Shown: positions 2,384 through 33,488 of the stretch, in pieces
How positions within the stretch are numbered: the stretch's first letter is position 1
Layout: each line of letters starts with the position of its first letter
Assembly (NCBI GenBank): GCA_003165795.1
Contig: PMWW01000171.1
Span: forward strand, 1-64,000
Reading direction: 5' to 3'
DNA: 64,000 nt
Source of the DNA: Acidobacteriaceae bacterium
GTDB lineage: Bacteria > Acidobacteriota > Terriglobia > Terriglobales > Acidobacteriaceae
Position numbers and translations under genes: made by a program
The notes under the pieces: generated by a model
The model's database searches: none
What the model saw: the letters and a program-made list of their open reading frames with translations, nothing else
Told to the model about the DNA's origin: nothing

Positions 2384-2607
2384 TTAGCTGTCAGCCTTTA
2401 GCCTTCAGCTATCAGCCCTCGGCTTGTCAGTAGCCAGCCGAAAGCGGCCTTTAGCATTGAGAAGAGCTTGCAGAACAGAGGGGTCCTTCGACTCCGCGCG
2501 AGCAAAAGGCGCGAATGCTCTGCTCAGGATGACAAACAATAATCTGATCGCCGACTGCGGCCGGCAAGCGGCCACCAGCAACTGAGAACTGACAACTGAC
2601 TACTGCC
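2384..2607. repeat. Intergenic element with inverted heptamer arrays (element 1)
   Basis: This fills the gap between the BrkB-like gene and the rhomboid gene. The left arm (2384-2438) is a run of degenerate 7-mers such as CAGCTAT and CAGCCCT. The right arm (2579-2607) reads AACTGAG-AACTGAC-AACTGAC-TACTGCC. Its reverse complement gives CAGTAGT, CAGTTGT and CAGTTCT, the same CAGYYNT pattern, so the arms are inverted. The centre (about 2485-2535) contains TCCTTCGACTCCGC and CTCAGGATGACAAAC, a motif common in intergenic repeats of soil bacteria. No reading frame is present. It resembles a MITE-like or STRR-like element. Confidence 0.65.
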
Positions 2608-3486
2608 TCAATTCACCCACGGCGGGCGGTTGTCCCCGTTTTTCTTGCGCGGCTCGCGGGCGCTGGGATCACGAATGTTGCCCAACTCGTCGAAGTAGTC
2701 TTCGTGCTTGTAATCGCCGCGATCATCGTGCTTGCGCATGTAGACCTCAAACTTGCGCGCGGCGCGTTTGCGCTTCCATCGGTAGTAGGAGTTGCGGATT
2801 CCGAAGGCGCGCTCTGACGCGGCATAGCCAAAGCCGCGGCGCGGAATAAGCTTCAGCCAAATATAGGCGAAGACCAGGCCGCCCAGATGGGCCATGTAAG
2901 CGATGGATTGCCCTCCGCCGCGAGCGGAAGACAACGCTCCGTAGAGCGCTAGAAAAATGATGCCGATGACAAAGTATTTCGCCTTGATCAGAAATGGCAG
3001 CGGAAACAGCATGACTTCCGAATCGCCGTGCAACATGCCGAACGCCAGCAGCAATCCATAGATGCCGCCCGAGGCGCCCACGGTCAACGTGTGCGGCGAC
3101 ACGCCCAAAAGTCCGGTGAACGAAACCACTACCGTTACCAACGCCGCCCCGATCACGCAGAAGAAATAAAACTGCAGGAACAGGTTGTAGCCCCAGTCCA
3201 CCTCCAGCTGCGCGCCGAACATCCACAGCGCCAGCATGTTGAACAGCAAGTGCAGGATTCCATAATGCAGGAAGGAGTAAGTGATCAGCTGCCAGATCTC
3301 GCCGTGTACGACGGCGGAGCCTGCCAGTCCGAGGTGGAAGTAGGCCCAGTCCCCGAAGACCGCAGTCGGATCAAATGCGCGAAGCAACCAAAATACTAAG
3401 AAGACGACACCGTTGGCGATCAGCAGTTGCTTCACTGCCCGGGTGAACGGCGGAAAACTCAACCCCATGCTTGTGGTGCGTCGCAT
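2608..3486 (-). CDS. Rhomboid family intramembrane serine protease
   Basis: A 292-residue membrane protein with the rhomboid core. The catalytic serine is in GASG (Ser139), the catalytic histidine in AYMAHLGG (His200), and the conserved SFLHYGILHLLFNMLALWMFG segment with its HxxxN pattern lies between about residues 71 and 91. Rhomboids cleave transmembrane segments of other proteins inside the bilayer. A hydrophilic C-terminal tail of about 75 residues (basic, then acidic, ending PPWVN) would lie in the cytoplasm. The start MRRTTSMGLSF is taken from the first ATG, and Met7 is an alternative. The substrate cannot be told from the context. Confidence 0.93.
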   Translation of the reverse strand: MRRTTSMGLSFPPFTRAVKQLLIANGVVFLVFWLLRAFDPTAVFGDWAYFHLGLAGSAVVHGEIWQLITYSFLHYGILHLLFNMLALWMFGAQLEVDWGYNLFLQFYFFCVIGAALVTVVVSFTGLLGVSPHTLTVGASGGIYGLLLAFGMLHGDSEVMLFPLPFLIKAKYFVIGIIFLALYGALSSARGGGQSIAYMAHLGGLVFAYIWLKLIPRRGFGYAASERAFGIRNSYYRWKRKRAARKFEVYMRKHDDRGDYKHEDYFDELGNIRDPSAREPRKKNGDNRPPWVN

Positions 3487-8964: not shown

Positions 8965-11175
<2,211 letters not shown>

Positions 11176-11176
11176 T

Positions 11177-11806
11177 TTGAAACATCTTCTCAACAAATGG
11201 AGCCTGCTGATCCTGGCGTTACTGAAGCCGCTGGGAATCTGGGGCGTGATGGGATTTGCCGCGGTGGACGCGGCCTTTCTCGGTATGCCGCTGGACGCTA
11301 TCGTAGCGGGCTATGCGTATGCCGACCCCAGGCGCTTCCTGCTATACGCGGCCATGGGAGCGGCCGGCTCGGCCCTGGGCAGCATCGTGATTTACCTGAT
11401 CGGCTACAAAGGTGGCGAGCTGCTGCTGGTAAAGCGAATCGGGAAGCAGCGGTTCAACAAGATCAAAGCTTCCTTCGAGCGGCACGAATTCCTGGCGGTA
11501 ATGCTGCCCTCCATGCTTCCGCCGCCGACGCCGTTCAAGCTGTTCGTGCTATCGGCCGGAGTAGCGGAGATGAACTTCGGCCACTTTCTGGCTGCGATTT
11601 TCTTTGGCCGACTGCTGCGCTTCTCGCTGGTGTCGCTGATCGTGATCCGTTACGGGCCTGCGATCCTGGGCTTCGTGGGAGGGATGGTGCACCGCCATCT
11701 GCGCTTGGCGATCGCTGTGATTGCGGCCGCGTTGCTGATCGGCTGGTGGGTTTGGCGGCTGCGTAAGCGTCGCTCACGGCGGAGAACCGAGCGGCCCACC
11801 CAGTAA
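11177..11806 (+). CDS. DedA/VTT-domain family membrane protein
   Basis: A 209-residue membrane protein with the SNARE-associated/VTT plan: GVMGFAAVDAAFLGMPLDAIVAGYAY, a glycine-rich membrane segment (AAMGAAGSALGSIVIYLIGYKGG), then FERHEFLAVMLPSMLPPPTPFKLFVLSAGVAEM and FGRLLRFSLVSL. Members are linked to lipid scrambling or undecaprenyl phosphate recycling in other bacteria, but that is not proven here. The tail is highly basic (RLRKRRSRRRTERP). The start is a TTG directly behind a heptamer repeat arm. No ATG precedes the first conserved block, so a start at the TTG is likely but not certain. Confidence 0.8.
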   Translation: MKHLLNKWSLLILALLKPLGIWGVMGFAAVDAAFLGMPLDAIVAGYAYADPRRFLLYAAMGAAGSALGSIVIYLIGYKGGELLLVKRIGKQRFNKIKASFERHEFLAVMLPSMLPPPTPFKLFVLSAGVAEMNFGHFLAAIFFGRLLRFSLVSLIVIRYGPAILGFVGGMVHRHLRLAIAVIAAALLIGWWVWRLRKRRSRRRTERPTQ

Positions 11807-24653: not shown

Positions 24654-24662
24654 GGACTTGCT

Positions 24663-24804
24663 CACCACAGAGACACGGAGACACAGAGGACGACGAAATT
24701 AAGGGATTCCGACGTTCGGATCTCTTGCGATCACGAAGGTCTCCGCGAGAGCTTGAGTCGAAGAGATTTTTCTTAAGAGTTCTTCTCTGTGCCTCTGTGG
24801 TGAA
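24663..24804. repeat. Element with inverted octamer arrays (element 5)
   Basis: The left arm (24663-24690) reads TCACCACA-GAGACACG-GAGACACA-GAGG, an 8-bp periodic tract. The right arm (24784-24804) reads CTCTGTGC-CTCTGTGG-TGA, the inverted form. The outermost 11 bases TCACCACAGAG are identical in inverted order. It fills the gap between the AhpD-like gene and the selB stop. Similar 'CACAGAGACACAGAG' repeats are known from intergenic regions of many environmental bacteria. Confidence 0.65.
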
Positions 24805-28038: not shown

Positions 28039-28545
28039 AGGCAGTAACTTGCAACTAGCGATTGGTTTCTGGAGGAACACCGATTAACTCCGGCTTCTGG
28101 AAGGGGACGGCCTTCAGGCTGTCCGTAAGCGCACACAATCAATTCGGCTTTAGCCGCTGGGGGACCTCGCCGTAACTTGATCAGAGTTTCCCTAGGACTT
28201 CAACTCATCGCATTTGCTGCATTACCTTATGATCGCTTTGTCCAGACCTGACAGCGGGAGAACCATGTTGCCCGGTTGGGTTCCGGAAATCGGTATGGTT
28301 CGCAATTAAGTTTGAGCCGCCAAGAACCAAGTCCCGCGTTGCGCGACGGCGACAAGATAGCCCAGCGCTTCAGCACCGGGTAGGCTGCAATTTTGAGTCT
28401 GGCCCCTTCAGGGGGCTACACCCCAGGATCTCAACAGAGCCAGATCATTTCAGAATTCATTCCACGATCGAGTGAGTACTGCGGGTCAAGCTGTCGCAAT
28501 CGACCACGCCGGAACCATTAGGATCGCCACGCGTAGAATGAGGCT
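28039..28545. other. Repeat-bearing gap between tonB-like gene and miaA operon
   Basis: About 500 bases with no convincing gene. At 28101-28126 is a palindrome-type repeat (GGACGGCCTTCAGGCTGTCC) and at 28140-28160 a GGCTTTAGCCGCTGGGG motif; both recur at 38.5 kb. Around 28396-28430 the stretch CCCCTTCAGGGGGCTACACC may be another worn copy. The rest is not recognised. Confidence 0.45.
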
Positions 28546-30036: not shown

Positions 30037-31920
30037 ATGCCACGTCTCGCTCTACTCGCTTTGTTCAGCCTCTCGCTGGGAATGCCCGGCCTTGCCTATG
30101 CCAAGGAGAAATTTCAGCAACCCGGCCCAGTGCATCTTGACCAGAAGGGCGAGAAGTGGGCCCGCGAGTCGCTGAAGAAAATGTCGCTGGAGCAGAAGAT
30201 TGGACAAATGTTCATGATCTGGGCGCGGGCACAGTTCCTGAACCTGGATGCTCCTGAGTATATTGCTCTGCGCGATACTATGCGCAAGTACCACATTGGC
30301 GGATTCGGTCTCACGGTGAATTTTGAAGACGGCTTCCTCTACAAGAATGAGCCGCTGGAAGCGGCGACGCTGGTCAATCAACTGCAACGCGATTCGGAGT
30401 TCCCTCTGATCTTTGCCGCCGACTTCGAGCGCGGGCTAGGCTTTCGCCTCAACGAGGTCACTAGCTTTCCGCACGCCATGGCGTTTGGCGCGACCGGCAA
30501 TGTGGACTATGCCCGCGAGTCGGCCCGCATCACCGCGCAGGAATCACGCGCTATCGGAGTGCAGTGGAACTGGTTTCCCGACGCTGACGTCAACTCCAAT
30601 CCTCTCAATCCCATCATCAACACCCGCTCGTTCGGAGAAGATCCCAAGCAGGTCAGCAACATGGTCGTCGCCTACATTGAAGGCGCCCACCAGTACGGCA
30701 TGTTGACCACGGCCAAGCATTTTCCCGGTCATGGCGATACCGACATCGATTCGCATCTGGCGGTCCCGTCCATCAAGGGAGACAAGGCGCATCTCGAGCG
30801 CGTCGAGTTGCCACCCTTCCGCGCCGCCATCAAGGCGGGGGTGGATGCGGTGATGGTGGCGCACCTCGCGGTCCCGGCACTCGATCCCGACCCCAACCAT
30901 GTAGCCTCAATCTCTCCCGCCATTGTGACTGGACTGCTGAAGCAGCAGATGGGTTTCAACGGACTAGTCATAACAGATGCGTTGACCATGGCTGGCCTGA
31001 CCAAATTGTTTCCTGAAGGCGGCTCTGCTGGCGCGGGCCGCGCGGCGGTGGAAGCCGTGAAGGCCGGCAACGATGTGCTGCTCATCCCTTCCGATCTTGA
31101 CGGCTCCTACCATGGTTTGCTGCAGGCGGTGCGCAATGGAGAAATTCCGGAGTCGCGCATTGACGAGTCGGTGCTGAAGATCCTGCGAGCCAAGGCTTCT
31201 GTCGGGCTGAATAAGGCGACACAGGTGGACATCAATGCGATCAACCGGATCGTAGCCAAACCGGCCAGCCTGGATACGGCCGAGGAGATCGCCGACGAGG
31301 CAATCACGCTGGTTCGCGATAATCATCAGGTGCTCCCGTTGAAAGCAACCCCCAAGGGAACCAATATCGGGCAAAATGCGTATCAACCTGCAGCCGAGGA
31401 CCGTAATCGGACCCTCGTGTTAATTTTTTCCGACGACAGCCGTTCCGATGCCGGACGGGTGCTGGAACACCAGGTGAAGATGCGAATTCCAGAGGCGAAG
31501 GCAATGTACATCGACGCCCGCAACCCGGCCGGATTGACGCAACCCGTCATGGACGCGGTGGAGCAGGCACAGGCAGTGATTGCCGCCGTGTATCTGACTC
31601 CGCAGGGCGGCGCGCAGACCAACCGAATCGCTTTGCCAAACGCGCCGGCGGCCATTTTGCAAAGCGTTTTGCGGGGCGCGCCTGACAAGACGGTAGTGGT
31701 TGCGATGGGCAATCCCTACCTTGCCGCGCAATTGCCCGAGGTCAAAACCTATCTGTGTACATTCTCTGACGCCCAGGTTTCTGAGCTGAGTGCGGTAAAA
31801 GCGATGTTTGGCGAAATCCCGATGTCTGGCCGTTTGCCGGTTAGTATTCCCAATGTTGCTAATCGCGGTGCCGGCCTGGGCGGCCCATCTCCAATGTCTA
31901 GCAGAGGACCTAATGAATAA
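30037..31920 (+). CDS. Secreted GH3 beta-N-acetylhexosaminidase-type hydrolase
   Basis: A 627-residue protein with signal peptide (MPRLALLALFSLSLGMPGLAYA). The GH3 barrel carries the NagZ motif KHFPGHGDTDIDSHLAVP (Lys227 to His240), where the loop His acts as acid/base in the family. The nucleophile is probably Asp314 in VITDALTMAGL. A second alpha/beta domain fills the C-terminal 200 residues (IADEAITLVRDNHQVLPL; RTLVLIFSDDSRSDAGRVLE), so the layout is that of two-domain exported hexosaminidases rather than the short cytoplasmic NagZ. It likely removes GlcNAc from peptidoglycan or chitin fragments. The frame is open upstream but only through repeat DNA. Confidence 0.9.
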   Translation: MPRLALLALFSLSLGMPGLAYAKEKFQQPGPVHLDQKGEKWARESLKKMSLEQKIGQMFMIWARAQFLNLDAPEYIALRDTMRKYHIGGFGLTVNFEDGFLYKNEPLEAATLVNQLQRDSEFPLIFAADFERGLGFRLNEVTSFPHAMAFGATGNVDYARESARITAQESRAIGVQWNWFPDADVNSNPLNPIINTRSFGEDPKQVSNMVVAYIEGAHQYGMLTTAKHFPGHGDTDIDSHLAVPSIKGDKAHLERVELPPFRAAIKAGVDAVMVAHLAVPALDPDPNHVASISPAIVTGLLKQQMGFNGLVITDALTMAGLTKLFPEGGSAGAGRAAVEAVKAGNDVLLIPSDLDGSYHGLLQAVRNGEIPESRIDESVLKILRAKASVGLNKATQVDINAINRIVAKPASLDTAEEIADEAITLVRDNHQVLPLKATPKGTNIGQNAYQPAAEDRNRTLVLIFSDDSRSDAGRVLEHQVKMRIPEAKAMYIDARNPAGLTQPVMDAVEQAQAVIAAVYLTPQGGAQTNRIALPNAPAAILQSVLRGAPDKTVVVAMGNPYLAAQLPEVKTYLCTFSDAQVSELSAVKAMFGEIPMSGRLPVSIPNVANRGAGLGGPSPMSSRGPNE

Positions 31921-32494
31921 CGTGGTCGGAAAAAGTTTATTCGCTCTCATGATTGCCAGTCTGCTGCTGTTGCTGGGCGCATGCAGCATCAATGTCGATG
32001 ACAAAGACAAGAAGGACGGGAAGGTCGACATTCAGACCCCATTCGCCAACCTGAAAGTGGACAGCAGCGAGAAAGCGGCCGACAACGGAATCCCGATTTA
32101 TCCCGGGGCCCACTTGCGTCCCAAGGACAAGGATGACACTCATTCGGTGAACCTCGACCTCGGCGCCATTGGTTTCGGCTTGAAGGTGATCGCGGCGGAG
32201 TACGAGACCGACGATTCGCCGGAGAAGGTCAAAGCGTTTTATCTGGACAAGATGAAAGCGTTTGGGAGTACGCTGACTTGCAATGGACACAGCGGCGGTT
32301 CCGACGTCCACATCTCGCCGCACAAAGACGATAACGACAAGAAGCTGACTTGCTCCGACACCCATGGTGACGGCTGGGAGATCAAGGCCGGCAGCGACGA
32401 TAACGAACATCTGGTGTCGATCGAGCCGCATGGATCCGGCACGCGCTTTGGAACCGTGCTGGTGCAGACCCATGGGAAACAGGACACGCTATAG
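31913..32494 (+). CDS. Lipoprotein of unknown function
   Basis: A 193-residue protein that starts inside the end of the GH3 gene (8-base overlap), after a GAGGA site. The N-terminus has a lipobox (SLLLLLGAC, Cys at about residue 24), so it is probably lipidated and held at a membrane. The mature part is rich in Asp and Lys (VDDKDKKDGKVD) and contains the line VIAAEYETDDSPEKVKAFYL with a possible small alpha/beta domain. No family recognised. Coupling to the GH3 gene suggests a joint role at the envelope. Confidence 0.75.
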   Translation: MNNVVGKSLFALMIASLLLLLGACSINVDDKDKKDGKVDIQTPFANLKVDSSEKAADNGIPIYPGAHLRPKDKDDTHSVNLDLGAIGFGLKVIAAEYETDDSPEKVKAFYLDKMKAFGSTLTCNGHSGGSDVHISPHKDDNDKKLTCSDTHGDGWEIKAGSDDNEHLVSIEPHGSGTRFGTVLVQTHGKQDTL

Positions 32495-32496
32495 AC

Positions 32497-32735
32497 AGCT
32501 AGCATTTGGCAGTTAGCAATTAGCAATGCAATTAGCGTAGGACATAGATGCTCCTTGCATAATTTGTCATCCCAGCCGAAGCGAAGCACAGCGGAGGGAT
32601 CTGCGGCTTCCGTGAGTTCTGCTCGGTGGAGTCGATTGATCCGAAGCTCGGTTCCAAAAGGAACTTGGCGGTTTCCGCCGTGGGTCTGAGTTGGCTAACT
32701 GCCAAATGCTAACTGCTGCTCCCCGCAGTTGCTAA
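32497..32735. repeat. Intergenic element with inverted heptamer arrays (element 4)
   Basis: Positions 32497-32517 and 32694-32714 form a 21-bp inverted repeat with a single mismatch. Each arm is built of 7-base steps (TAGCATT-TGGCAGT-TAGCAAT-TAGCAAT; GCTAACT-GCCAAAT-GCTAACT). The centre at 32563-32605 contains TTTGTCATCCCAGCCGAAGC and CGGAGGGATCTGCGG, the reverse form of the GGATGACAAA motif in element 1. No reading frame is present. Confidence 0.7.
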
Positions 32736-32765
32736 TTCCTTCGCGCTTCCTGTAACGTTCGGCAA

Positions 32766-33488
32766 GTGGAATATCCCTGCTACCGCTGCCAAGCCGTGAT
32801 CCAGGAGGGTGCGGCTTTTTGCCCGCACTGCGGCGCTCCGCAAATCCGAGTCGTTGCTCCGGAAGGCGAAACCCACACCATCCAGCCCACGCCTGACAGC
32901 TCGGGCGAGATGCTTCCGCCGCCGCAACCTATAGCGCCTCCGCAGTCCTGGACGATGGGTGGCCTGCCCCAATCGCTACAGCCCGGTGCGATTCGCTGGG
33001 ACCTGGCATGGAAGGGTGCTCTGCTGTGCGGCGTAGGCGCGGCGGTTCTTTCCGCAATCCCGATTGTCTCGGTCGGTTGCTGCTTATGGATGCTGGTAGC
33101 CGGGGCGCTTTCGGTTACGCTTTACCAAAAGCAGGTGCCGGGCACGCTGATCACGCCAGGCATGGGAATGCGAGTGGGCGCTCTGGCCGGGGTCTTCGGC
33201 TTCATGGTGAATGCCGTAGTGACCACCGTATCGTTCGTGGCGTTTCGTTCCAACGGCGATTTTCGCCGCGCCCTGCAGGAGCAGATGGACAAACAGCTGT
33301 CCAGCAATCCCGATCCCAAGGTCAAGGAAATGATGCAGCGCGTGCTCGAGTGGGTAGCAACGCCGCAAGGCGCGGCCACGATGATGGTGCTGGTTTTGGT
33401 GACGCTGGCGGTGGTGTTCTTGTTATTCACGGCGGCGGGTGGAGCGCTGGGGGCTTCCCTGTTCGGCCGGCGCCGCGAATTCCGCTGA
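32766..33488 (+). CDS. Zinc-ribbon membrane protein
   Basis: A 240-residue protein starting at GTG. The N-terminal zinc ribbon has YPCYRCQ and AFCPHCGAPQ (two CxxC pairs, about residues 5-23). A proline-rich linker follows (LPPPQPIAPPQSWTMGG), then four hydrophobic segments between about residues 83 and 230 (GALLCGVGAAVLSAIPIVSV, VGALAGVFGFMVNAVVTTVS, ATMMVLVLVTLAVVFLLFTA). This is the common 'zinc ribbon plus DUF4199-like membrane' plan of unknown role. It is preceded by element 4 and followed by a GC palindrome at 33490-33505. Confidence 0.75.
   Translation: MEYPCYRCQAVIQEGAAFCPHCGAPQIRVVAPEGETHTIQPTPDSSGEMLPPPQPIAPPQSWTMGGLPQSLQPGAIRWDLAWKGALLCGVGAAVLSAIPIVSVGCCLWMLVAGALSVTLYQKQVPGTLITPGMGMRVGALAGVFGFMVNAVVTTVSFVAFRSNGDFRRALQEQMDKQLSSNPDPKVKEMMQRVLEWVATPQGAATMMVLVLVTLAVVFLLFTAAGGALGASLFGRRREFR

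Follow-up and report, generated by a model that had tools for sequence, protein, structure and literature searches.

The window, a stretch of 64,000 nucleotides from an Acidobacteriaceae genome, contains a 271-nucleotide gap that runs from the stop codon of a lipoprotein gene at position 32494 to the start codon of a gene for a zinc-ribbon membrane protein at position 32766. This gap, named element 4, is made up of two tandem arrays facing each other and a stem-loop between them. Together with the flanking genes, the features are, in order:

31913–32494, plus strand: upstream lipoprotein gene, without a Pfam match
32496–32536, plus strand: left heptamer array of element 4 (CTAGCAT-TTGGCAG-TTAGCAA-TTAGCAA...), left type, beginning 2 nt past the TAG stop codon
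32563–32606, plus strand: REP-like core of element 4, an imperfect stem-loop (GTCATCCC...GGGATCTGCGG) dispersed in the genome
32694–32720, minus strand: right heptamer array of element 4 (GCTAACT-GCCAAAT-GCTAACT-GCTGCT), an inverted match to the left array
32766–33488, plus strand: downstream gene for a zinc-ribbon membrane protein, with a weak Zn_Ribbon_1 match below the cut-off

The 21-bp inverted repeat that the preliminary description had placed at 32497–32517 and 32694–32714 is confirmed, with 20 of its 21 bases matching and none of 1000 shuffles equalling it. The match can be extended to 21 of 22 bases (32496–32517 with 32694–32715), a value that 1000 dinucleotide shuffles of the gap sequence failed to reach, the best of them scoring 18. 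Both arms are 7-nt tandem arrays of TTAGCAN units, a make-up that the earlier reading had overlooked; at 32500–32536 the unit TAGCAAT is repeated 5.6 times. Off-centre between the arms, TTTGTCATCCCAGCCGAAGC occupies residues 32563–32582. The core is the sole part of the element 4 interior that is repeated anywhere in the whole genome.

Two other gaps of the window are bracketed by heptamer arrays, one of them with a core and one without:

2386–2424, plus strand: element 1 left heptamer array (TTAGCTG-TCAGCCT-TTAGCCT-TCAGCTA-TCAGCCC)
2482–2533, minus strand: element 1 REP-like core, GTCATCCTGAGC subfamily
2577–2610, minus strand: element 1 right heptamer array (CAACTGA-GAACTGA-CAACTGA)
11014–11045, plus strand: element 2 left heptamer array, TTGTCGG units; element 2 has no GTCATCC core
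11137–11177, minus strand: element 2 right heptamer array, GGCAACG/ACAACTG units

The centre of element 4 had been described as the reverse of the element 1 core. A GTCATCC repeat does lie on the other strand in element 1 (2482–2533), but the two cores belong to different GTCATCC subfamilies and the 20-mer TTTGTCATCCCAGCCGAAGC occurs once in the window, even when three mismatches are allowed. Likewise, the proposal that the elements share a three-part architecture with different arms holds in so far as several gaps of the window consist of inverted arms around a centre; a single three-part element is not supported, the arms and the core behaving as two independent repeat classes. At 24660–24802, inverted octamer-type arrays (CACCACAGAGACACGGAGA / TCTCTGTGCCTCTGTGGTG) bracket a gap in the same manner, and this octamer recurs outside a heptamer array, in a nested arrangement, at one gap of genomes G003 and G005 (G003:C116:34459–34772). 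A further dispersed repeat, located at 28080–28195, contains GGGGACGGCCTTCAGGC...CGGCTTTAGCCG palindromes with a ACTTGATCAGAGTTTCCCTA end and is also present near loci L009, L014, L069 and L090.

Heptamer arrays form a class that extends throughout the sampled genome. In 1.09 Mb of the window's own genome, a sample partly chosen for loci with arrays or cores, so that densities are biased and are not genome averages, 91 lag-7 arrays are present, and 87 of these are located between genes as called with a simple home-made hexamer scorer. The same 1.09 Mb contains 5 arrays of lag 5, 22 of lag 6 (3 intergenic), 6 of lag 8 (4 intergenic) and 13 of lag 9 (none intergenic); 7-nt tandem units are over-represented relative to these other unit lengths. 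The degenerate pattern TTRGCANTTRGCANTTRGC matches 95 times in the window's own genome, while the reversed control pattern gives no match. Unit types are numerous within the one genome: TTAGCAN, TCAGCCG, CAGTTGT, TAGTGGA, TTCGCTN and CTAGCGA. An inverted partner of matching flavour is found within 600 nt of 47% of the arrays; the figure falls to 9% with flanks exchanged among loci and is 7% for partners in direct orientation. The spacing between paired arms ranges from 11 to 456 nt. Some of the enclosed sequences are small genes: HicA/HicB-like toxin–antitoxin genes lie within a bracketed gap at locus L095 (10033–10421), and an intact four-helix-bundle (23S IVP-like) gene lies between heptamer arms at L099 (5109–5495), both putatively identified from their translations. 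A similar, apparently frameshifted copy of the latter is present between different arms at L071 (12306–12749). In genome G180, of the same phylum, the heptamer pattern has 397 matches, and the listed ones are long pure TTGGCAG arrays; G196, G205, G266 and G282 match the reversed control pattern instead, which suggests another heptamer flavour.

The arrays obey a positional rule. When scored by leave-one-out, the left-type arm is on the left in all 27 distinct pairs (binomial p 1e-8), and the three pairs of the window (2386–2610, 11014–11177 and 32496–32720) all conform. For unpaired arrays, the left type is closer to the left gene in 21 of 22 cases and the right type closer to the right gene in 21 of 22 (binomial p 1e-10 for 42/44). 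For 50 arrays a stop codon is the closest gene end, at a median distance of 2 nt, and for 39 it is a start codon, at a median of 15 nt; 63% of arrays are no more than 10 nt away from the end of a gene, versus 15% if placed at random. Arrays are scarcer in gaps between divergent genes (5 of 146, against 65 of the 525 other gaps; p = 0.001).

The REP-like GTCATCC core is a repeat class separate from the heptamer arms. Stem-loops of the GTCATCC...GG(A/G)(T/C)C type, with at least two subfamilies, lie at 41 intergenic sites of the 1.09 Mb, counting the wider family. Cores and arms are each also found where the other is missing; a dependence of the core on the arms was rejected, the association per gap being weak (p = 0.07). 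Like REPs and REPINs (PMC3116915, PMC3733652), the core is a short imperfect palindrome with many intergenic copies, and REPIN-like pairs are found in the loops of other gaps. Unlike those moved by RAYTs, it carries the tag GTCA and not GTAG (or CGTC). Of the 13 Y1 (TnpA/RAYT-type) transposase genes of the genome, 11 were checked, and none of these has GTCATCC repeats on both sides. The heptamer arms differ from REPs in that they are not palindromes. The Y1 genes at L030, L033 and L034 are flanked by palindromic families of their own (CCCAGGACGAAGTCCTGGG, GTGTCAGGGCACGACT.. and GGTAGAGCGAACCTTCAGG, respectively) and, judging by these flanks, several RAYT–REP systems coexist in the genome.

In the orthologous gap of G007, a relative from the same genus that is 83% identical in the ribosomal genes and 70–74% identical at the lipoprotein/zinc-ribbon locus, both arms are present and the core is absent; in that of G001, the left array is absent. 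At L155–L157 the lipoprotein gene is present, with downstream sequence unlike the element 4 gap, and these three loci provide no comparison. At another gap, a REP pair located between the arms in G003 is missing in G005.

The ribosomal-protein operon region was compared at species level across nine genomes of the genus, the closest pair of relatives being 96% identical in the ribosomal genes. Many gaps of the operon are bracketed by arrays, and at a given gap the flavour varies between species on both sides. Between rpsC and rplP, five genomes share a CAGTTGT-like flavour, G004 has AGTGGNT and G006 has AGGGGTT; the secY/adk gap has five flavours and, in G008, no array. The arms at orthologous gaps have a mean match of 9.42, against 8.30 (sd 0.20) when right arms are shuffled among the genomes inside each gap, and none of 20000 permutations reached the observed value. 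Between genomes that are about 94–96% identical, some gaps are wholly different and adjacent ones near-identical. In particular, G004 and G005 (96% identical) differ fully in arms and interior at rpsC/rplP, rpsH/rplF and secY/adk, with matching flanking genes. Single arrays are homogenised unit by unit, all units sharing one base change (CTAATTG x3 versus CTAGTTG x2 at the same gap). In the secY/adk gap (L144–L154), a leader-like stem that is conserved (AGCTACCGGGAGGCT...CTCTCAGGGT) is located upstream of adk; it is kept in some species and lost where the flavour is AGGGGTTAG.

We interpret the element 4 gap as combining two intergenic repeats of known kinds, a mirror pair of heptamer arrays and a REP-like GTCATCC stem-loop that landed independently, and estimate the probability of this reading at roughly 0.6; slippage and matching of the arms at the DNA level are inferred parts of it. 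With the left array beginning at the lipoprotein stop codon and the right array ending upstream of the zinc-ribbon gene, the stem-loop would have landed in the loop between them. Replication slippage would allow the heptamer arrays to grow, shrink and homogenise, and the complementarity of the arms would be kept at the DNA level, either because one arm serves as the template for the other within a hairpin or through a template switch. Exchange of whole-gap alleles between relatives could produce the sudden changes of flavour. That arrays last at the ends of genes may reflect tolerance of them at these sites; a transcribed pair would form an intercistronic stem-loop, although selection on the RNA is not evident. 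Slippage, hairpin copying and gap exchange together would account for homogenised units and matched arms. They do not explain the polarity rule, and the replacement of arms and interior at once in genomes that are 94–96% identical fits allele exchange or re-insertion better than copying in place. More speculatively, a general DNA-level process common to Acidobacteriota, Cyanobacteria and Xanthomonas might write matched arrays of fixed polarity at the ends of gaps and rewrite both arms together, the flavour switching as a unit while the genes stay where they are.

Homologous recombination between relatives could by itself replace whole gaps, the arms matching only on account of the single origin of each allele as a matched pair; we regard this as possible, if doubtful. 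The complete differences between G004 and G005 at several gaps with like flanking genes point in this direction, as does the occurrence of the same flavour in less close genomes. Allele swapping leaves the origin of the matched arms unaccounted for, however, and it does not account for homogenisation unit by unit within an array.

It is unlikely that the pairs are maintained for the sake of the RNA, with an intercistronic stem-loop protecting the mRNA or coupling translation by bringing the stop codon near the next start. Roles of this kind have been suggested for the STRRs of cyanobacteria (PMC2670836), and the preference of the arrays for co-directional and convergent gaps, where they abut stop codons and end short of the start, is consistent with them. 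The gap (32490–32740) also has a strong predicted RNA fold (z −3.8), but its DNA fold is strong too and no less exceptional (z −5.0). Moreover, many arrays are single and some pairs are located in divergent gaps. Read on the mRNA strand, arm-to-arm mismatches are not biased towards G-U over A-C (80 versus 100 in the operon, 41 versus 33 for pairs of the window's own genome); RNA pairing thus gives no sign of being maintained, which favours a process at the DNA level.

A miniature transposon of the MITE or REPIN kind, consisting of three parts, with the heptamer arms as terminal inverted repeats and moved as a unit by a transposase acting in trans, appears improbable. Mirror arms that match at 21 of 22 positions and flank a centre, the recurrence of one arm flavour at many loci and the presence of 13 Y1 transposase genes would all suit such an element, as would the secY/adk gap, occupied in every genome compared except G008, where it is empty. 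Against this, there is no conserved multi-copy interior: apart from REPs and one paralogue of the four-helix-bundle gene, the interiors of heptamer pairs have no second copy in the 1.09 Mb, and that of element 4 is unrepeated outside its core. The inter-arm lengths vary widely, as given above, and none of the eight Y1 genes inspected is bracketed by heptamers, those at L030, L033 and L034 having their own REP families. A three-part mobile element was rejected on the unrepeated interiors and the occurrence of arms without a core in G007.

A conserved element regulating the zinc-ribbon gene, a reading that the preliminary description would have drawn from an identical length and sequence in distant relatives, can practically be dismissed: residues 32727–32765, adjoining the start, are similar in G000, G001 and G007, but the gaps of G001, without the left array, and G007, without the core, differ from element 4 in length and sequence, gap length and content vary among relatives, and an Rfam search for known structured RNAs gave no match at E up to 1. 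Integron attC-like sites, brought to mind by the GTTRRRY-like units, were set aside because the polarity of the arms would be opposite.

In a few bacteria, heptamer repeats had already been observed at the ends of genes and left unexplained, with quadruplex formation as one suggestion. In Xanthomonas and Nostoc, heptameric G-rich repeats (GGGAATC / GGGGA(C/T)T) are almost exclusively intergenic, rarer between divergent ORFs and different in length and sequence among relatives, and Xanthomonas has 70–75 cases per genome of inverted pairs in convergent orientation (PMC4692102). The acidobacterial arrays are similar to these repeats in their 7-nt units, depletion in divergent gaps, inverted pairs and positional rule, being intergenic (87/91) and lying next to a stop codon on the sense strand or ahead of a start codon on the antisense strand (42/44 singles of the expected polarity; median 2 nt from a stop). 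They differ in being mostly non-G-rich, in having many flavours per genome, in the joint change of their arms and in their acidobacterial host. Of the 27 left arms, 26 contain no G run longer than 2. Quadruplex formation was rejected on these short runs; the arrays are thus not a G4 repeat and belong only to the wider heptamer class. Since many flavours are non-G-rich, a quadruplex is not needed: the positional rule holds, in another phylum, for units unable to form one, and this removes one explanation. The heptamer class is already known; new, with respect to the open-licence literature, are the phylum, the many non-G-rich flavours and the concerted turnover of the arms, which change in step even within a ribosomal-protein operon. 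Dozens of gaps, orthologous across nine related genomes, are available for weighing slippage and hairpin copying against recombination and selection on RNA, each against the others.

Cyanobacterial STRRs are 7-bp hairpin-forming repeats located in gaps (PMC2670836), and the unit types ttgtcagttgtcagttgtca, ccactgactactgac and taggggtgtaggggt of Nostoc gaps (PMC2408588) are shared by the acidobacterial heptamers. In the P6b hairpin of the Nostoc trnL intron, degenerate heptamers base-pair with each other and inserts depart from the repeat (PMC3488679). Both belong to another phylum, and systematic bracketing of gaps and joint turnover of arms were not found described for either in the open-licence literature. 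A 200 kb stretch of a plasmid of Nostoc NIES-3756 contains ten lag-7 arrays, several of which abut annotated stop or start codons, and one inverted pair brackets a gap.
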